DNA of 64,000 nt from assembly GCF_000371805.1 (NCBI RefSeq), contig NZ_AQUK01000001.1, forward strand, positions 694,268-758,267, in the 5' to 3' direction. Source of the DNA: Methanocaldococcus villosus KIN24-T80. Lineage in GTDB: Archaea; AGJL01; Methanococci; Methanococcales; Methanocaldococcaceae. The position numbers and the translations under genes were made by a program. A model generated the notes under the pieces. That model searched no databases. It saw nothing but the letters and a program-made list of their open reading frames with translations, and was not told the origin of the DNA. Below, one piece after another: positions 10,751 through 35,610 of this stretch (positions are counted from its first letter, which is position 1; each line of letters starts with the position of its first letter).

Positions 10751-11144
10751 TACTTAATTTTACTTGCTTAACTCCCTTTAATGCAGAAATCTTATTTGTT
10801 AGCTCTTTTATTTTTTTAGCATCTCCTCTAACTAATACTGTCTCTAAACAGTGATCTTTATCTAAATGTATGTGTAAAGTAGCTACAATAATGTCATTAT
10901 AATCATGCTGTATTTCAGTCAGTTTTTCCATAACATCATTTTCATGATGATTATAAATAATATTTATAGCTCCAGCCCTCTCTCCCTCTAAACTTTGAAT
11001 CCACTTATGTTTTATTATATAATCTCTTATTGCATCTCTTATAGCTTCACTTCTACTAGCATATCCCCTTTCAGCAATAATTTCATCAAACTCCTTCAAC
11101 AGCTTTGATGGTAATGAAACACTTATTCTTTCCATATCTGCCAT
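10719..11144 (-). CDS. nikR: NikR-type nickel-responsive transcription regulator
   Basis: Ribbon-helix-helix repressor with a C-terminal ACT-like metal-binding domain. The N-terminus ERISVSLPSKLLKEFDEII and SRSEAIRDAIRDYI form the RHH DNA-binding fold. The metal domain shows the expected ligands: a histidine in QHDYND, the pair in LHIHLDKDH and a cysteine in CLETVLV. Starting at ATG 11144 (MADMERIS) gives 141 residues, the family's usual length; a TTG twelve bases upstream is the alternative. Nickel matters here for F430, hydrogenases and CO dehydrogenase. The 91-base AT-rich gap to the divergent connectase gene contains repeated AATATT units. Confidence 0.9.
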   Translation of the reverse strand: MADMERISVSLPSKLLKEFDEIIAERGYASRSEAIRDAIRDYIIKHKWIQSLEGERAGAINIIYNHHENDVMEKLTEIQHDYNDIIVATLHIHLDKDHCLETVLVRGDAKKIKELTNKISALKGVKQVKLSIMVPEGHIPE

Positions 11145-11235
11145 ACTCTCAACCAATATTATTTTTTAGTAATATTATTCATTAAAAATATTAATATTAA
11201 TAATATTAAATAATATATATTATTTTGGTGGGAGT
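11145..11235. promoter_or_regulatory. Divergent nikR/connectase control region with repeated AATATT units
   Basis: The gap between the divergent nikR and connectase starts is almost pure A+T and contains at least five AATATT hexamers (11155, 11171, 11187, 11193, 11202), several in palindromic pairs. TATA elements for both genes must lie here. NikR proteins bind spaced inverted repeats and often control their own gene, so an operator is plausible, but hexamers of this composition also arise by chance. No exact operator is claimed. Confidence 0.35.
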
Positions 11236-27070: not shown

Positions 27071-27142
27071 TTTCTGTATAATTTTCTTAATTATATATTT
27101 TTAATTATTAGTTAGGTTATAGATGAGAAAACTTTAATAATA

Positions 27143-27234
27143 ATATAGATCGTATAAAAAAACTTGCAAAAAGAGAATCTGTTAAAAGTTTTAAGTAAAT
27201 TTAAGGAAAAAATTAAAGTAAATATTGATGATTT
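27143..27234 (+). repeat. Left copy of the direct repeat flanking the island
   Basis: 92 bases, matching 35046-35134 in the same orientation with a handful of substitutions and a net three-base length difference. It begins ATAGAT and ends GATGATTTTG in both copies. This copy continues as an open frame (archaeal ATPase remnant). Confidence 0.88.
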
Positions 27235-27394
27235 TGAAGATGAAATCTTTGAAGATGTTAAATTCCTAATAAAAAATGAGATTTTGTTTTATGATGTTGT
27301 TAATGGTGTAATAAAACCAACGTCAATAAAAAATGGTATGCTATTAAAGAGATTATTTAATTTACACCACCAACCTTTATGGTGGAGGTGTTAG
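27164..27394 (+). pseudogene. C-terminal remnant of an archaeal ATPase gene
   Basis: A 76-codon frame (TTG start, no binding site) whose product contains FLIKNEILFYDVVNGVIKP. It resembles the C-terminal winged segment of archaeal AAA ATPases such as the intact one at 43558, which ends [19 protein letters not shown]. The N-terminal ATPase part is missing, so I read it as a leftover 3' end. The right repeat copies its first part but has a stop and a two-base deletion. Confidence 0.7.
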
Positions 27395-27425
27395 TGGGTA
27401 TAGCAATAGGGCGAAGCCCTATGCT
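27363..27425 (+). ncRNA. GC-rich structured leader upstream of the DUF499 operon
   Basis: Two inverted repeats stand out in very A+T-rich surroundings. ATAGGGC (27406-27412) and GCCCTAT (27416-27422) form a perfect 7-base-pair stem with a GAA loop, extended by AGC/GCT across one bulged A. Just upstream CCACC (about 27367) can pair with GGTGG (about 27381). In hyperthermophiles such GC-rich islands often mark structured RNA. It lies 70 bases before the DUF499 start, so it could be a leader element, attenuator or guide-type RNA. Function unknown. Confidence 0.5.
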
Positions 27426-27492
27426 TATAAAATCAACATTCAATAAAGAAATGGTTTGTTATAAAAGAAGTCATCTAAAAAGAGGGGAGACC

Positions 27493-30400
27493 ATGCAAGG
27501 ATTAAAAGTTTGGAAGGATGTTTTAGATGAGACTCTCGATATGCAAGTAGCTCCTGAATTGGGGGATGTTATTAACAAAACTGCCCATAAAATTTATACA
27601 GAACCAGAAGAATTCTTTAAAAGGACATATTTTACTGACTCTATGGTACAAATACTTGATAGACTGTTAAATACTTTAAGTGGGAAAGAAAGGCATAATA
27701 TATTCTTAATATACTCTCTTTTTGGGGGAGGGAAAACACATACAATATTAACAATCTATCATGCACTTAATAGTCCTGACTCTCTTGTAAATTATGAAGT
27801 TCTAAAAGATTATCCTGAGGATAAAAAGGAGAAAATAAAAAATATTGGGTTAAAATTAAAAAACCTTCAAAATCAAAATGTAAAAATACTTCCAATATAT
27901 GGTAAAGGAAAATTGGGGCAGCCAAGTAATCCATTAAACTTTAGTGCTTATGAAGTCAAAACATTATGGGGATACATAGGGCACTGTTTAGGAAAATATG
28001 CACTTGTTGAAAATGATGATAAAAACCTGACAGTTCCTACCATAGACACAATTAGAGAGCTTTTAAAAGGAAATAAAGTAGTGTTTTTAGTTGATGAGAT
28101 TGTTCATTATATTGATAACTTATACAACAGTGGAAATGAAGATGATAGAAGATATGCAAAAAATATCTGTAAGTTCTTTGACGCCCTATGCACTGCTTTA
28201 ATTGGAACTGACAGTGTAATGATTCTAACTTTACCAATGGAAAAAGATGGGGAAAAAGTTGAAAAAGGATATAATAGGGAAATAGTTCTTTCACTTCATA
28301 GGGCAGTTGAGAGGGTTGGAGGTGCTGAGCTCTATTCTCCACTAAGAACTGAAGGCATTTCTGGAGGAGAAATTGTTGAAATTTTAAAAAAGAGAATTTT
28401 TGAAGACATAGATAAAGATTTTAAAGAGAAAATAATTGAAAAATATAGAGAAGCTTATTCAAACACTGAAATATTTGGAAGATTTGAAGAAAACTTATCA
28501 AAAACTTATCCATTCCATCCAGATTTTATAGCAACACTGAGAACCATTGTTGAGAGAGGGAACTTACAAAAAACAAGAGATATGGTTAGAATAACAAGAA
28601 TCGTAGTGAGAAATCTATTACAAGAAGAAGAGTTTCCAACTTTAATAATGCCATATCATATAAACCCAAGAAATGAGAAACTAAAAGGAATATTGTTTGG
28701 AAAAAATCAAATATTTGCCGACTATGGAGGAGCAGTGTTAGATGTAGATTTATCTCTTGAAAAATTTAAAAGATTTTCAAAACCTGAATTGGCAGAGATT
28801 ATCTTAAGATATATATTCTTAAAGACCTACCCTTATGATTCCCCAACACCACTTGAAGGATTTCCAAAAAAAGATAGTATTGCAAGAGCAGTTTATGAAA
28901 TTAGTTTCTTTGAAAAACATGCATTGCAATTAACTGATATTCCAAATACTATAAGCGAAATTGAAAAAAGCTCATCATTTATATATTTAAACAAAAAGGA
29001 TGGCGTCTTCTGGTTTTGGAGAGTTGCAAATGTATTTCAAATGGTTGAAAGCAAAAAAGAAGAGTTGCTCACACTCAATATAGTTAGTGTTCATAAGAAA
29101 CTTGAAGAATTTGTTAAAAAATTTGCTGTTGAAGGAAAGGGTCTAAAGACTAAAAAAATTGGAAATAATATAACATTTTTCAAAAAGAATAGTATTATAG
29201 TGTCAAGAGACCCACAAGAATTCCAAGATGATGAGGATTATAAATTGCAAATACTCATAAGAGATGACGTTGATAAATCTACACTTTACAGGATAATTTA
29301 TCAGTATGGAACTGGGACGAGAACATATAGAAATACTATAACTGTCTGTTATGCAGATAAAGCTCTAAACAAACTACTTGAAATAACTGCCCGTATAATG
29401 GCTTGTGATAAAGTAAAAGGAGACATTAAAGCAAAATACAAATCCTATGGAGAAGAGGTAGTTCAAATACAAACAAATATGGTAAGAAGTATTGAAGACA
29501 ATGCAAAAGCAGAGTTTGATGAATTTGTAGCAAGTGTATTTAAAAAAGTTGCATATCCTAAAGATAATGATGTGGAGATTGTTAATGCCACCCCAACATC
29601 TAAGTCAATACTTGAAAATGTCTATTCTGCACTGGTTGAATGGGGAAAAATCCCATCTAATCTAACTTTTGAAGGTCTTGAGTATTATTTAAATGAGGTA
29701 AATATAACTTTTGATAAACCAATACGATTTTCAGAACTTAGAAGTATTATTAGAACAAATACAAAACTTCCATTTATTACTGATGAACAATTAAAAGAGG
29801 CTATAAAAGAGGGTGTTAGGGATTTAAAAATTGGTATTGAAAGGGATGGATGGGTTTTATTTAAAGAGGTATATCAAAACATGCCAAATTATAATGAATC
29901 TGGAGTACCTCTTGAGGATATAAGAGAAAACGATATAATTCTTCCACAAATAAAGGCATTAAACAAACAAATAAACCAAATTTTAAAAGAAGAGAAGGAT
30001 GAAGTTGTTGATAATAAGTATATAAAAGTTTGGTATGAAGTTTGTATTTCAGATTCTGAGTCATTGCCATTAAGAGAACTTGTTGAAGAGACAGAAGATG
30101 GTTTTGTTGTCAAACCTGAGTTTGTGGATTTAGTAATAAATGGCTATATAGTAAGAAAAACTGAAGAAAAAATTATTGGAGAAAGAAATGAATTTTCTTT
30201 GAAATTGGATAGACACAATATTGAAGGAAAACCAGGAGAAAATGTGGATGTAAAAGTAGTAATAACACCATTAAAAGGACGTGGTTTTGAAGTATATCTT
30301 GAAGTTGAAGAAGGGGAATTGGATATAAACCATGGAAAGGTTCCTTATGAAACAATATGGCACATCAAAATCCCTGAATCCAAAAAAACTTATAATATAA

Positions 30401-30807
30401 GGGCAATATCTGAAGATAATATAATAAAAACTGATAAAATAACCCTTATCCCAAGAACTGATATTGTAGAAGTCCATGAATTGTCTGAAAACTTAAAAGG
30501 AGGAAAATTATTAGAAATAAAGGGAATAAAGTCCTATGATGATTTAGATATGGTTCCTGAAAACTTAAATGCCAAAGTTAGAGGAGTCTTTATTATTGAA
30601 AATGATGAATACTTTAGAGCAGATTTCAACAATCTATCTCTCAATGTTGTAAAATATATTATTGAGGAGATAGAGGGGGTTATGGAACATAAAGCAAAGT
30701 TATGTGTGGATATTATTTTTACAGATGAAATAAAGATTGATGATTTAATATTTGAGAAACTTAAATGCTTAAATAAAAAAGCAGTATTTAAAATTAAGAA
30801 ATGTTAA
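27493..30807 (+). CDS. DUF499-type AAA+ ATPase (defence-associated)
   Basis: A 1104-residue ATPase of the DUF499 family. From ATG 27493 (MQGLKVWKDV, RBS GAGGGGAG) it has the family's AGE-style N-terminus with YTEPEEFFKRTYFT, Walker A in YSLFGGGKTHT (about 74-84), Walker B in VVFLVDEIVHYI (about 196-207), then a long helical region with a DNA-binding look and a beta-rich C-terminal part (about 880-1000). DUF499 ATPases are known from prokaryotic defence islands beside helicases and DUF1156 methylases. No methylase is present here. Codon use includes CGA, CGT and CTC, unlike most neighbours. An upstream in-frame extension of 38 codons overlaps the hairpin and is rejected as start. Confidence 0.82.
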   Translation: MQGLKVWKDVLDETLDMQVAPELGDVINKTAHKIYTEPEEFFKRTYFTDSMVQILDRLLNTLSGKERHNIFLIYSLFGGGKTHTILTIYHALNSPDSLVNYEVLKDYPEDKKEKIKNIGLKLKNLQNQNVKILPIYGKGKLGQPSNPLNFSAYEVKTLWGYIGHCLGKYALVENDDKNLTVPTIDTIRELLKGNKVVFLVDEIVHYIDNLYNSGNEDDRRYAKNICKFFDALCTALIGTDSVMILTLPMEKDGEKVEKGYNREIVLSLHRAVERVGGAELYSPLRTEGISGGEIVEILKKRIFEDIDKDFKEKIIEKYREAYSNTEIFGRFEENLSKTYPFHPDFIATLRTIVERGNLQKTRDMVRITRIVVRNLLQEEEFPTLIMPYHINPRNEKLKGILFGKNQIFADYGGAVLDVDLSLEKFKRFSKPELAEIILRYIFLKTYPYDSPTPLEGFPKKDSIARAVYEISFFEKHALQLTDIPNTISEIEKSSSFIYLNKKDGVFWFWRVANVFQMVESKKEELLTLNIVSVHKKLEEFVKKFAVEGKGLKTKKIGNNITFFKKNSIIVSRDPQEFQDDEDYKLQILIRDDVDKSTLYRIIYQYGTGTRTYRNTITVCYADKALNKLLEITARIMACDKVKGDIKAKYKSYGEEVVQIQTNMVRSIEDNAKAEFDEFVASVFKKVAYPKDNDVEIVNATPTSKSILENVYSALVEWGKIPSNLTFEGLEYYLNEVNITFDKPIRFSELRSIIRTNTKLPFITDEQLKEAIKEGVRDLKIGIERDGWVLFKEVYQNMPNYNESGVPLEDIRENDIILPQIKALNKQINQILKEEKDEVVDNKYIKVWYEVCISDSESLPLRELVEETEDGFVVKPEFVDLVINGYIVRKTEEKIIGERNEFSLKLDRHNIEGKPGENVDVKVVITPLKGRGFEVYLEVEEGELDINHGKVPYETIWHIKIPESKKTYNIRAISEDNIIKTDKITLIPRTDIVEVHELSENLKGGKLLEIKGIKSYDDLDMVPENLNAKVRGVFIIENDEYFRADFNNLSLNVVKYIIEEIEGVMEHKAKLCVDIIFTDEIKIDDLIFEKLKCLNKKAVFKIKKC

Positions 30808-30881: not shown

Positions 30882-31340
30882 GTGGAGAGTAAAAATACTC
30901 AGTATATGGTTAAGCTTAAATATATTAAACCAATAAAATTACCAATTGTAAAAGAACAAAAATTAGTAGAATTTATTCCAATAATACCTCTTGAAGATGA
31001 TAAATACATAAAAGGTAAAATTGAAGGAGCTGCAAGAGTATTTCTCCCAGAGTTTATTAATTTTGCTAAACACCTTGGCTTTGAAGTTTCTGGTAAGAAA
31101 AGAATCACATTAAAAACTGATGATGATTATGCATATCTGAGATTATTTGTTTATGCCATGGTTATGCAAGCATTAAAAGATAATACAATGTGGGGAAAAT
31201 TAGAAGACCATATTCTTTCTATGGAACCATTAGCTTTACGTTATTGGGCATCAACTTTTAGAAATAACTATTGGGAACATAATAACAGAAGAAAATTATT
31301 AAAAATTGCAAAATGTTTTTTAGATGTCGAAGAAATCTAA
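30882..31340 (+). CDS. Island protein, 152 aa, unknown
   Basis: Start GTG 30882 behind GAGGTG. The N-terminal third is beta-rich and basic (YMVKLKYIKPIKLPIVKEQ), the rest mostly helical with aromatic residues (YAYLRLFVYAMVMQALKD, ALRYWASTFRNNYWEHN). No enzymatic motif is seen. It stands 19 bases before the helicase and shares its likely promoter, so it may be an adaptor or specificity subunit of the helicase. Family not recognised. Confidence 0.72.
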   Translation: MESKNTQYMVKLKYIKPIKLPIVKEQKLVEFIPIIPLEDDKYIKGKIEGAARVFLPEFINFAKHLGFEVSGKKRITLKTDDDYAYLRLFVYAMVMQALKDNTMWGKLEDHILSMEPLALRYWASTFRNNYWEHNNRRKLLKIAKCFLDVEEI

Positions 31341-31359: not shown

Positions 31360-34359
31360 TTGCAAGATAAAATAAAAAATTATCTCACAAAAAAGATATT
31401 TTTGCACGACCCCTTACTATTCTTCTATGCTTTAAATCATCCAACATCAAAAAAAGAAATAAAACCATTTATACACCAAATTCACCTTTTATATAATGCA
31501 ATGCTTCTCCGCCCCGTTCGTTTTTTAATTGCAGATGAGATAGGTTTAGGTAAAACAATAGAGTCTTTAGCAATAGCAAGATATTTAGAATTAAAAGAAG
31601 GCATAAAAAAGATTTTAGTCTTGACACCAAAAATTTTAAGAGAGCAATGGGAATCAGAAATAAAAAGGGTAGGAGGAATTCCAAAGATTATTAAAGATGG
31701 AAATGATATAAGTAGAATTAAGAATTCTTTTCAGTATAATTACGATTCTGCAGTTTATATTATAATCTCAATAGACCTTGCAAAAAGGTATGTTGATAAA
31801 ATATTACAAATTGATTGGGATTTGGTTATTGTTGATGAAGCCCACAACATCACTAAAAATACTCAAAGAGGAAGATTAGTAGAAAAGCTTTCAGAAAAAG
31901 TAAAAAATATACTTTTACTTTCTGCAACCCCACACAGGGGAAACCCTCAAGATTATCTATATAGGTTAAAGATGTTAGACCCTACACTTATAAATGATTT
32001 TGATAAATTAAATGCTAAAAATTTCTATCGTAGGACTCATGACATATTAGTTTTTAGAAGGACGAAAAAATTAGTAAATACTCTTGAAAATAAAAGAGTT
32101 TTTAAAGATTGTCAATTTAATGCAGTTGTAGTAGATATATCAGAAGAGGAAAAAAGATTTTTTGACCTTCTTGAAAATACTCTTAAAAATATACTGAAGA
32201 ATACAAAAAGGAATTCTCCAATAGCTCTTTTAGCAGTAATTTTGGGTAAACGAGCATCTTCAAGTTATAAAGCAGCAATTGAAACACTGAATAGGATTAT
32301 AAAAACTAACATTTTAAAAACTGATGATATTGATGTGTCAGAGGATATTCAAAACTTATTCTCATTGAGTTTTGAAGAAATGGAATTTGAAGAATATAGA
32401 GAAATATCTGACATAATAAATAATATTGTTGATAAATATTCACCCTATTTAAGCCGAGAACAAAAAGAATTATTTGAAAATCTCCTCAAAACAACAACTA
32501 ACATCATAATCAAAAAAGATAATAAAATTGACGCTTTAGCAAAAATTATTGCAGAACATATTAAAAATAATGAGAAAATTGTAGTATTTACTGAATATGT
32601 TGATACTCTCAAATATCTGAAAGAAAATCTACATAAGTATCTAAATAACTATGGCATAAAAATAGATTCAAATGAAATACTAACACTTTCAGGGGAAGAT
32701 AAAAATAGAATAGAGAATATTACTGAAGAGATAAATAGAAAATTTGAAGATCATGGAAAAATTTTACTAGCAACAGATGTTGCTTCTGAAGGGCTTAATT
32801 TGCAAATTGCAAGTGTCTTGATAAATTATGATTCCCCATGGAGCCCTATAAAATTAGAGCAGAGAATTGGTAGAGTTTGGAGGTTAGGGCAAGAAAAAGA
32901 TGTGTCTATTTATAACATTTTCCTTTCAAATAGAATGGATTTAGAACTGCTCAATAGCTTGTATAAAAAAATAATGAATATTAAAACTGCACTTGATAAT
33001 CAATTAGCAATAGGTAAAGAGATATATATTGTAAATGCTGAAAATCTATTTAACTTAGAAGAATTCGCATGCATAAAAAACTTGTCTGAATATGATATTA
33101 TAATTTCAGCAATAATGGGGAACTTAAACAGTTATACTGAAGAAATTGTCAAAACACTAAAAATTATTAGGAATAAGCTAAAAATGATGAGCATTTTTCC
33201 AGAAGAACATGCTGAAGAGATTAAAAATGAGGTTTTAAATGTTATTCAAAATGAAGATTATTTGAAGATTGAAAAGATTGAGGAAATTTTAAGGGACTAT
33301 CAAGATAAGGTTTTAAATAAGAACATACATACCCAAAGTGGGTTATATCAAATCATAAAATCAAAAAATGATGAAGATTTACAAATATCAAGAATTGTTG
33401 TAAAAAATCCAGTTAAAAATAGAGAATATTTGTTTTTTGTAAAGGTATTAAACGAAGATGATGAGGTCGTTTGGGAAATTCCATTAATGGTTTCTCGTCA
33501 AGAAAAAAATATTAAGTTAGTGACAAGTGTTGAATTATTAGAATACTTAACAAAAATATTTAGCAAAGATTTATTTTTCACAGAATACATAGAAAAACCT
33601 TATGAAAAGCAAATATTGGCTATTAAAGGAAATATTCTTACTTATGTTAGAAGTATTGTAAGTAACATAGGTAAAAGAATCTCAAATTACGAAAATCTCA
33701 AGGATTTAGGTTTAAAAGATGATAAATTATTTAAGAATTTGAAAATAAGTATTAGTGATCCTATAATTATTGATTATCTGCCAGAGAATGAATTCTCAAT
33801 TGGAAAAATTATTCCTTTAGAGATTGTGGATACTTTAGATAAAGATAATATTATTTTACCAGATGAAAATGATTTAAAGGCAATGGATAGGAATTTTCTG
33901 CCCCTTGAAGAACTTGTGAAAATTGAAAAACTGGCTATGAATGTTATAATGAATCTCGAAGAAAAAAGATTAGCAAGTAAATATGGATATGAAAATAAAG
34001 GTAAGGTTTGGGATGTTTTGGATGTTTCCCTACATGAGCATTATGATATAAAGGTTATTGAAAATGGGGATGAGAAATATATTGAAGTAAAAGGGCATAA
34101 GGGGTTATTACCAATTGCAGAACTTACAGAAGCAGAATACAGATTTGCCATGGAAAATGAAGATAAATACTATTTGTATATAGTCTGCAACCTTGGAAAA
34201 GATGAAAAAAATTTAATAGTATTTGAAATTCACAAACCTCTCAACAAAGAACATAGAAGAATATATCTAATTAAAAATGGAGAAAAGATAGATGTGAGCA
34301 AATATTATAATAACATAAATATAACTGAAAAAAAGAGATATTTGTTTAAACTTGCATAA
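31360..34359 (+). CDS. SNF2/RapA-like helicase with C-terminal DUF3883-like domain
   Basis: A 999-residue superfamily 2 protein. Lobe 1 has RFLIADEIGLGKT (Walker A, about 54-66), LTPKILREQW, VIVDEAHNI (about 156-164) and LLLSATPHRG. Lobe 2 has TDVASEGLNLQ and EQRIGRVWRLGQ (about 470-515). The last 120 residues resemble DUF3883: YDIKVIENGDEKYIEVKG, then a LTEAEY-like helix and YYLYIVCNL, the D..ExK pattern suggesting a PD-(D/E)XK-type fold. Helicase-DUF3883 fusions are typical of DISARM-like defence loci. The start is TTG 31360 after GAGGGGATG. Rare arginine codons CGC and CGT occur (31509-31520). Confidence 0.85.
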   Translation: MQDKIKNYLTKKIFLHDPLLFFYALNHPTSKKEIKPFIHQIHLLYNAMLLRPVRFLIADEIGLGKTIESLAIARYLELKEGIKKILVLTPKILREQWESEIKRVGGIPKIIKDGNDISRIKNSFQYNYDSAVYIIISIDLAKRYVDKILQIDWDLVIVDEAHNITKNTQRGRLVEKLSEKVKNILLLSATPHRGNPQDYLYRLKMLDPTLINDFDKLNAKNFYRRTHDILVFRRTKKLVNTLENKRVFKDCQFNAVVVDISEEEKRFFDLLENTLKNILKNTKRNSPIALLAVILGKRASSSYKAAIETLNRIIKTNILKTDDIDVSEDIQNLFSLSFEEMEFEEYREISDIINNIVDKYSPYLSREQKELFENLLKTTTNIIIKKDNKIDALAKIIAEHIKNNEKIVVFTEYVDTLKYLKENLHKYLNNYGIKIDSNEILTLSGEDKNRIENITEEINRKFEDHGKILLATDVASEGLNLQIASVLINYDSPWSPIKLEQRIGRVWRLGQEKDVSIYNIFLSNRMDLELLNSLYKKIMNIKTALDNQLAIGKEIYIVNAENLFNLEEFACIKNLSEYDIIISAIMGNLNSYTEEIVKTLKIIRNKLKMMSIFPEEHAEEIKNEVLNVIQNEDYLKIEKIEEILRDYQDKVLNKNIHTQSGLYQIIKSKNDEDLQISRIVVKNPVKNREYLFFVKVLNEDDEVVWEIPLMVSRQEKNIKLVTSVELLEYLTKIFSKDLFFTEYIEKPYEKQILAIKGNILTYVRSIVSNIGKRISNYENLKDLGLKDDKLFKNLKISISDPIIIDYLPENEFSIGKIIPLEIVDTLDKDNIILPDENDLKAMDRNFLPLEELVKIEKLAMNVIMNLEEKRLASKYGYENKGKVWDVLDVSLHEHYDIKVIENGDEKYIEVKGHKGLLPIAELTEAEYRFAMENEDKYYLYIVCNLGKDEKNLIVFEIHKPLNKEHRRIYLIKNGEKIDVSKYYNNINITEKKRYLFKLA

Positions 34360-34459
34360 AATTGCAAAAACCTAAATAACATGAAAGATAATGAAGAAAT
34401 AAGCAAATTAGTTAAGAAAATAAGTTCCATGATTGGGTTAAGATTATTGAGGGATGTTA

Positions 34460-34900
34460 ATGAAAGATGATAGTTCCTATTTAGATTTTGATTTTGAAAA
34501 AGGAAAAATAAGAGAAAAAATTCAGGAATTTTTAGGAAATAATACAGAATCTAAAAGAATTCTTTATGAGCATATTGATAGCTTAGAGGAATTTGTTAAA
34601 AATACTATTAAAGAACTTAAAGAGTCAGAAGAGGGCTTAAGCTCAGAAGGAAAAAATAAAATATGGGGAGCATTTCTTTATTATTCTACTTTGGTGGACG
34701 TATTTACGTTTAGTCAATTATCTAAATTTATGATTGATGAAAGTGAGATATTGAGAGTTGAAAAACTAAAAGCTGAATTAGAGGTTGCAATAGCATTGGC
34801 AAGAAGTAAATATCAAGCAAAATCAAGAAGGGATATTGTAAGGAGCATTATGTATTTATCTATTGCTTTAGGTATTATTTTTGGTTTAAAATTAATTTAA
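34460..34900 (+). CDS. Island protein with C-terminal membrane anchor, 146 aa
   Basis: ATG 34460 with GAGGG six bases ahead (an ATG six bases upstream overlaps the site). The N-terminal half is acidic and helical (EKIQEFLG, EEFVKNTIKELKES), the middle has an aromatic stretch WGAFLYYSTLVDVFTF, and the last 18 residues form a hydrophobic helix (IMYLSIALGIIFGLKLI) preceded by basic residues, fitting a tail anchor. In defence loci such proteins can be membrane effectors, but this is inference. No homologue recognised. Confidence 0.68.
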   Translation: MKDDSSYLDFDFEKGKIREKIQEFLGNNTESKRILYEHIDSLEEFVKNTIKELKESEEGLSSEGKNKIWGAFLYYSTLVDVFTFSQLSKFMIDESEILRVEKLKAELEVAIALARSKYQAKSRRDIVRSIMYLSIALGIIFGLKLI

Positions 34901-34941: not shown

Positions 34942-35049
34942 ATGGATTTAGATGAGTATAAGAAACTAAAGAAAAAGGTTATGGAAAAATTGAAAATTGA
35001 TGAACAAACATTGGATAAGATGATTGATGAAAAATACAATAATAAATAG
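34942..35049 (+). CDS. 35-residue protein resembling an RPA N-terminal helix pair
   Basis: ATG 34942 follows an excellent AGGTGAT site and runs to TAG at 35047-35049, where the right direct repeat begins. The peptide MDLDEYKKLKKKVMEKLKID has a hydrophobic-charged pattern and a following KMIDEKYNN segment, recalling the helical N-terminal motif of archaeal single-stranded DNA binding proteins (replication protein A). It may be a free-standing small protein or the stump of an RPA gene cut off at the island edge. Confidence 0.55.
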   Translation: MDLDEYKKLKKKVMEKLKIDEQTLDKMIDEKYNNK

Positions 35050-35134
35050 ATTATATAAAAAACTTGTAAAAAGAGAATCTATTAGAAGTTTTAAGTAAAT
35101 TTAAGGAAAATTAAAGTAAATATTGATGATTTTG
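35046..35134 (+). repeat. Right copy of the direct repeat flanking the island
   Basis: 89 bases matching 27143-27234 in the same orientation. Compared with the left copy it has a TTG TAA in place of TTG CAA and two bases fewer in the A run at 35107-35110, so it is not coding. It ends 24 bases before the HAD phosphatase start. Confidence 0.88.
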
Positions 35135-35157
35135 TTGATTTAAATAATGGTGATAGA

Positions 35158-35610
35158 ATGAGTATTATTTTATTAGATCTAAATGGAACTATAGCAGTTG
35201 ATGGAAAAATAAAAGAAGGAGTTAAAGATAGATTAAATAAATTAAAAAATAAAGCTAAAATATTTATTCTCTCAGCAGACACATATGGTACATTAAACAA
35301 TATTTTAAATGATTTAAATGTTGAAGGTATAAGAATTAATAAAGAAAATCATGAAAAAGAAAGTTTAGCTAAATTAAAAATATTAAAAGAGCTTAAGAAA
35401 AAATTTCCAAATGAAAAGATTATTGCTATAGGTAATGGTAGTAATGATGAACTAATGCTTAAGTATTCAGATTTAGGAATATGTGTAATAAATGAGGAAG
35501 GAGCTTCAGTAAAAGCAATACTTTCTGCTGATGTTGTTGTAAAAGATATAAATGATGCTTTAGATTTAATATTAAAAGAAAATAGGTTAAAAGCAACTTT
35601 AAGAAACTGA
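35158..35610 (+). CDS. HAD-superfamily protein, soluble P-type ATPase-like
   Basis: A 150-residue HAD protein with motif I LLDLNGTIAVDG (Asp7 nucleophile), motif II LSADTYGT and the C-terminal motif AIGNGSNDELML. Motif I reads DxNGT, not DxDGT; the soluble P-type ATPase-like group also lacks the second Asp. It would be a small phosphatase or phosphotransferase. GGTGATAG precedes ATG 35158. It sits at the right border of the island and converges with the helicase gene, overlapping by 12 bases. Confidence 0.8.
   Translation: MSIILLDLNGTIAVDGKIKEGVKDRLNKLKNKAKIFILSADTYGTLNNILNDLNVEGIRINKENHEKESLAKLKILKELKKKFPNEKIIAIGNGSNDELMLKYSDLGICVINEEGASVKAILSADVVVKDINDALDLILKENRLKATLRN

Follow-up and report, generated by a model that had tools for sequence, protein, structure and literature searches.

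Direct repeats of ATPase-gene origin around a DUF499-helicase locus in Methanocaldococcus villosus: probable recombination scars of a split operon

Methanocaldococcus villosus KIN24-T80 belongs to a group of deep-sea, methane-making archaea, and its genome (G000; 1.25 Mb, two contigs) contains a block of putative defence genes bounded by two direct repeats. The block lies within a stretch of 64,000 nucleotides (the window), to which all coordinates refer unless a contig or locus is named. The initial annotation of this stretch, made from the sequence alone, proposed either that the block is an island that entered in or beside an ATPase gene, or that it was formed by recombination between two ATPase copies. 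What the repeats are, and how they came to flank these particular genes, is the question addressed here. Having considered island insertion, duplication of an ATPase tail by a hairpin element and the integration of a circle, we arrived at a different reading, to which we give a probability of roughly 0.58: the repeats would be recombination scars in a resident ATPase gene (ATPase-A) that split an operon, and not the attachment sites of a mobile island.

The repeats and the genes between them

The direct repeats reported in the initial annotation are present and longer than it had stated, the left copy occupying 27114-27241 and the right copy 35018-35139, both on the forward strand, with 109 of 128 aligned columns identical and 6 gap columns. 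A high A+T content and the many weak matches in this region would favour a fortuitous resemblance, but the local alignment of the pair scored 82 against a best of 31 among 410 other window segments, part of the repeat has a Pfam match, and a genome-wide search gave an E value of 5.8e-33. Chance similarity is therefore extremely improbable and, given the alignment scores, excluded for practical purposes.

Both copies are composite. From 27169 on (27169-27241 on the left, 35069-35139 on the right) they derive, as had been proposed, from the 3' end of an archaeal ATPase gene, and 67 of 73 columns are identical, with one 2-nt deletion in the right copy. That derivation does not extend to the preceding segment, 27114-27168 (about 54 nt, common to both copies), which is not recognisably ATPase and scored at the null level against 86 full ATPase genes; an internal stretch of the related pseudogene at 815 kb (codons ~222-236) was tried as its source and rejected, since 74% over 46 nt is chance level. 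The left copy does run on as an ATPase-like C-terminus, the whole remnant (27169-27351, forward strand) corresponding to codons about 271-330 of an MJ1010-like ATPase and matching PF21690 with an E value of 1.1e-6, above the curated cut-off. It matches the same-genome ATPase pseudogene (G000:C1:815233-816118(-)) at 95% over 184 nt, and intact ATPase-A genes of other species at 79-83%. The right copy is degraded, as had been described: it is truncated and frameshifted, and ends at 35139, 18 nt before a HAD gene at 35158.

Membership in a repeat family scattered over many loci without islands, which the initial annotation had raised as an objection to its own reading, holds for the ATPase copies and not for the composite repeat. 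The composite block was found at just these two places among the loci examined, a distribution that suggests a sister relationship between the copies, as opposed to separate derivation from two ATPase fragments. The same composite ATPase relic is present twice, the right repeat being the second and shorter copy. Identity between them is 85% overall and 92% in the ATPase part, short of the near identity that marks the flanking repeats of a mobile island.

Three conserved genes follow the left repeat on the forward strand. The first encodes a DUF499 AAA+ ATPase (HmaC/BrxC-like; 27493-30807; PF04465, 980 bits; PADLOC HmaC, 4.3e-44). Its open reading frame can be extended to 27379 (1142 aa), reading through a hairpin element and an ATPase tail, but comparison with a related genome (G011) indicates that 27493 is probably the true start. 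The next encodes a 152-aa protein (30882-31340), the third conserved member of the DUF499-helicase half; it is 93-94% identical in G006 and G011 and gave no Pfam match at E<=1, DUF3780 included. The last encodes an SNF2 helicase with a C-terminal NOV_C domain (DrmD/BrxH/HmaA-like; 31360-34359; DrmD 1.3e-68, BrxHI 6.3e-61, HmaA 1.2e-60). Beyond it, also on the forward strand, lie the gene for a 148-aa protein whose C-terminus, judged by eye, is probably a membrane segment (34454-34900; no tblastn relative in the fetched loci and none in viral contigs), and a 35-aa ORF that ends within the right repeat, its 3' end making up the first part of that repeat (34942-35049; no relatives in the fetched loci). 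None of the island ORFs encodes an integrase or transposase. The window locus has no DUF1156-type methylase, and between 27070 and 35158 there is no ORF for PglZ or iSTAND, the type-3 criterion for BREX-related (BR) systems.

ATPase-A genes, their neighbours and the left junction

MJ1010-like ATPases are known as scattered paralogues; they are not known as breakpoints or as operon components. PF21690 matches number 1 to 21 per Methanocaldococcus genome and split into two subfamilies, here named A and B and, like the 100-nt tract length and the score threshold of 15 used below, chosen after the data had been seen; the repeats belong to A. Exact tracts of at least this post hoc length occurred in 16 of 184 within-genome ATPase pairs against 7 of 1447 between-genome pairs, and because they are so much commoner within genomes, the copies appear to recombine there, although recent gene duplication could explain part of the excess. 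The ATPase-A of the G011 operon (L213:3412-4440), for example, has a 387-nt exact 3' tract in common with another copy in that genome (L172:7924-8934), likely a gene-conversion tract. In the plasmid collection ATPase-A was found on the M. jannaschii 58-kb element only. In G007, a homologue of the HAD-family gene behind the right repeat is broken by stops and adjoins two ATPase-B genes (L099:7565-8008).

A search for DUF499 in 36 genomes of the order returned 11 loci in 10 genomes. In six of the 11 (the window remnant in G000, and G011, G015, G012, G004 and G021), an ATPase-A on the same strand ends immediately before DUF499; as some of these loci are related, the number of independent events is smaller, at most a handful given the two DUF499 classes. 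The usual order is DUF1156 methylase, ATPase-A, DUF499, the 152-aa gene and SNF2 helicase, and the methylase lies within the DUF499 locus in G011, G012, G006 and G015. The distance from the end of ATPase-A to DUF499 is 14-26 nt in G011, G015, G004 and G021 (the G021 copy being a pseudogene); in G011 and G015 a full-length ATPase-A follows the DUF1156 methylase, with 21 and 15 nt, respectively, between its stop codon and the DUF499 start. G012 has the same order, with ATPase-A about 160 nt upstream of DUF499 and a hairpin element of the type here called P between two ATPase tails, matching window positions 27352-27478. The G006 methylase is directly joined to DUF499, with a divergently oriented ATPase-A fragment next to it, in G013 and G027 the methylase abuts DUF499 without an ATPase, and in G016 it lies just upstream of DUF499 without ATPase-A; a second DUF499 locus in G021 has no ATPase-A close by.

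ATPase-A thus often, though not always, adjoins DUF499 in the operon, and does so with two different DUF499 classes. The suggestion that an ATPase gene was just the landing site of the island is not supported, and because ATPase-A usually lies directly upstream of DUF499, the left repeat copy is most likely a remnant of the island's own operon. A literature search returned nothing on a link between this ATPase and BR/Hma systems.

The left junction carries a further layer. Between the ATPase remnant and DUF499 lies a small type P element of two hairpins (27352-27426, forward strand; fold of -25.3 kcal/mol for 27363-27426), which sits between two ATPase-tail copies and has no match in Rfam. It is followed by a second ATPase-A tail with a stop codon (27427-27478, forward strand), which occupies the native position before DUF499: alignment with the ATPase-A/DUF499 junctions of G011 and G015 takes in the tail, the stop and the leader. 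In other Methanocaldococcus, the same element is seen where tRNAs and genes end, at their 3' side.

Such elements surfaced in a scan of 16-20-kb neighbourhoods for duplicated ATPase 3' ends, which otherwise gave matches under 75% identity, for the most part A+T noise. The fetched DNA was searched for three hairpin types (GCAATAGGG..CCCTATGC, TTTTGATSAAACTTTT..AAAAGTTTC and CCAATAGGG..CCCTATGG; further examples at L110:8292, L117:8180, L161:12192, L200/L223, L201/L224, L202/L225, L207/L229, L210/L220 and L169:7827). They are flanked by direct duplications of the preceding gene's 3' end, mostly of 13-45 nt, and their targets include the 3' ends of tRNA and protein genes. A flanking duplication score of at least 15 was reached at 9 of 23 sites for P, 6 of 20 for Q and 6 of 25 for R, against 1.5% of 600 random sites, in DNA that had been selected for its closeness to ATPase loci or to P matches and is not a random sample, and with some of the R scores reflecting repeats between adjacent elements and not gene-end duplications. 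They may be miniature mobile elements whose target duplications are long and variable; a literature search found no description of them. MITE-like elements with ends ATAGTTCTTTTCAAAA..TTTTGAAAAGAACTAT lie beside and inside the tail of an ATPase-A fragment in G006 (L098:10570-10752 and 11050-11164).

The distant methylase and the origin of the repeats

The genome holds one DUF499 gene and one DUF1156 methylase. The latter (ORF of 1012 aa) lies at G000:C1:818367-821318(-), 94 kb from the window half and on the opposite strand. It is 78% identical to the methylases of G011 and G006, against 88-93% for the window DUF499, and its divergence is mainly in the middle, target-recognition part (52-73%, the ends being at 80-92%), a region that also varies between G006 and G011. 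Downstream on the same strand are toxin-antitoxin-like genes (one matching UPF0175), a broken gene and the decayed ATPase-A (815233-816118); further along come another ATPase gene, of a different type, and a short remnant that is Cmr2-like, 39% identical to a cmr gene beyond the helicase in G011. A tract of 132 nt in the window (27169-27300, forward strand) matches the decayed ATPase-A at 99-100% (99% and 99.2% in two of the comparisons), the mismatch in one alignment falling at its far end; similarity drops to about 80-85% beyond 27300 and is lost altogether upstream of 27169. We propose that this is a recombination or conversion tract. The surroundings (G000:C1:806000-822000; L239) form a dense defence island of type I RM-like genes, an ATPase_2 gene, remnants, toxin-antitoxin-like genes and the methylase, with an N-terminal fragment of ATPase-A upstream of the latter.

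We infer from these comparisons that both halves came from one operon and that recombination in ATPase-A did the splitting. The ancestral operon, encoding a BREX-related defence system of RM-like kind, would have comprised the DUF1156 methylase, ATPase-A, DUF499, the 152-aa gene and the SNF2 helicase. It would then have been broken inside ATPase-A by homologous recombination among the multiple copies of this gene, leaving the methylase and the now-decayed ATPase-A at 815-821 kb (minus strand) and, in the window, a DUF499-helicase half that keeps only the last ~180 nt of ATPase-A. Two routes can be envisaged. A 94-kb inversion between oppositely oriented ATPase-A copies would suffice, in that its reversal restores the operon order on one strand; alternatively, the DUF499-helicase half would have been excised via ATPase-A repeats and re-inserted at an ATPase relic. 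The second route accounts better for the composite repeat flanking the moved half, and neither fully explains segment 27114-27168.

Several observations argue for the split: the ATPase-A tract common to both break ends, the sole methylase 94 kb away and the Cmr2-like remnant beside it. Together with the within-genome exact tracts (16/184 versus 7/1447), they make recombination between ATPase copies, the second of the two origins first suggested, the best explanation of the repeats. Other observations weigh against it. The 815-kb pseudogene and the operon ATPase-A of G011 and G015 are 46-75% identical in protein sequence, depending on segment, with mixed best matches, so that the pseudogene is not clearly their orthologue; the 132-nt match by itself could be gene conversion between unrelated copies; and ATPase-A is not universal, G013, G027 and G016 having none between methylase and DUF499.

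The main rival, which we consider possible though doubtful, is that two partial BREX-related loci were acquired independently and never formed one operon here, the 132-nt match being a later ATPase-A gene conversion. Exact tracts are indeed common among the ATPase copies of one genome, the methylase is more distant from its G006 and G011 counterparts than DUF499 is (78% versus 88-93%), and the 815-kb locus also carries toxin-antitoxin, RM and other island genes. Yet the extra divergence of the methylase is mainly in the part that varies between G006 and G011 as well, and one methylase and one DUF499 per genome is the complement expected of a single system.

A site-specific mobile island, whose attL and attR, some 110-128 nt long and set in an ATPase gene, would be the repeats, is improbable. 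It would explain why direct repeats flank the block exactly and why ATPase-A tails adjoin DUF499 in several species, and a 7.9-kb excised circle, as predicted from the repeats, is formally possible. But no integrase or transposase is encoded, the repeats are 85-92% alike and contain indels, and the adjoining ATPase-A of G011 and G015 is full-length with operon spacing and not a split target. A search for an empty site through the neighbouring PTP, HAD and mmp7 genes found no homologous one among the relatives, gene order around the flanks being scrambled across the genus; an excised circle was not seen either.

Significance and comparison with known systems

The operon-split reading corrects the island-insertion one, and the BREX-related systems of methanogens gain an ATPase gene that is often found next to their other genes, a feature of which we found no description in the literature. 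It also implies that the methylase and the restriction half of a defence system can sit 94 kb apart with their frames open. Open frames are kept by each of the four core genes, so the two separated halves may still function together in trans; at such a distance, annotation of defence systems locus by locus would overlook the methylase and call the system incomplete. More speculatively, and we think it unlikely, MJ1010-like ATPases may be a genome-wide recombination platform in the Methanococcales, their interchangeable 3' ends serving as the address at which defence modules dock, swap and split; exchange between one ATPase and another would then build up and dismantle BREX-related operons time and again. 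Were ATPase paralogues such platforms, they would offer a concrete, testable route for integrase-free shuffling of defence islands in archaea.

Like the islands that integrases insert at attachment sites in gene 3' ends, the locus is bounded by direct repeats containing the 3' end of a gene; unlike them, it has no integrase, its repeats are imperfect, and the supposed target gene is the island's usual neighbour. The ATPase part of the repeat belongs to subfamily A of the MJ1010-like archaeal ATPase family (PF01637 + PF21690), of which it is here a 3' fragment only.

The closest comparison is with BR systems, which are defined by DUF499, a DUF1156 methylase and an SNF2-type helicase, for which an EVE-domain gene has also been mentioned (PMC12839542), and which are called Hma in PADLOC (PMC8565338). 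The window locus itself has the DUF499 gene and an SNF2-type helicase of the BrxH/HmaA kind and lacks the DUF1156 methylase. Type-2 BR systems have a standalone DUF3780 gene, in whose place the 152-aa gene stands here. Taken with the methylase locus, the likeness extends to the DUF499 AAA+ ATPase, the DUF1156 N6-methylase and the SNF2-type helicase, and an EVE-domain gene adjoins the G015 locus; the differences are the additional MJ1010-like gene, ATPase-A, that several Methanococcales carry between the methylase and DUF499 genes and, in M. villosus, the methylase 94 kb away. Window and methylase locus together thus resemble a DUF499-centred BREX-related (BR/Hma-like) system, a putative defence against viruses.
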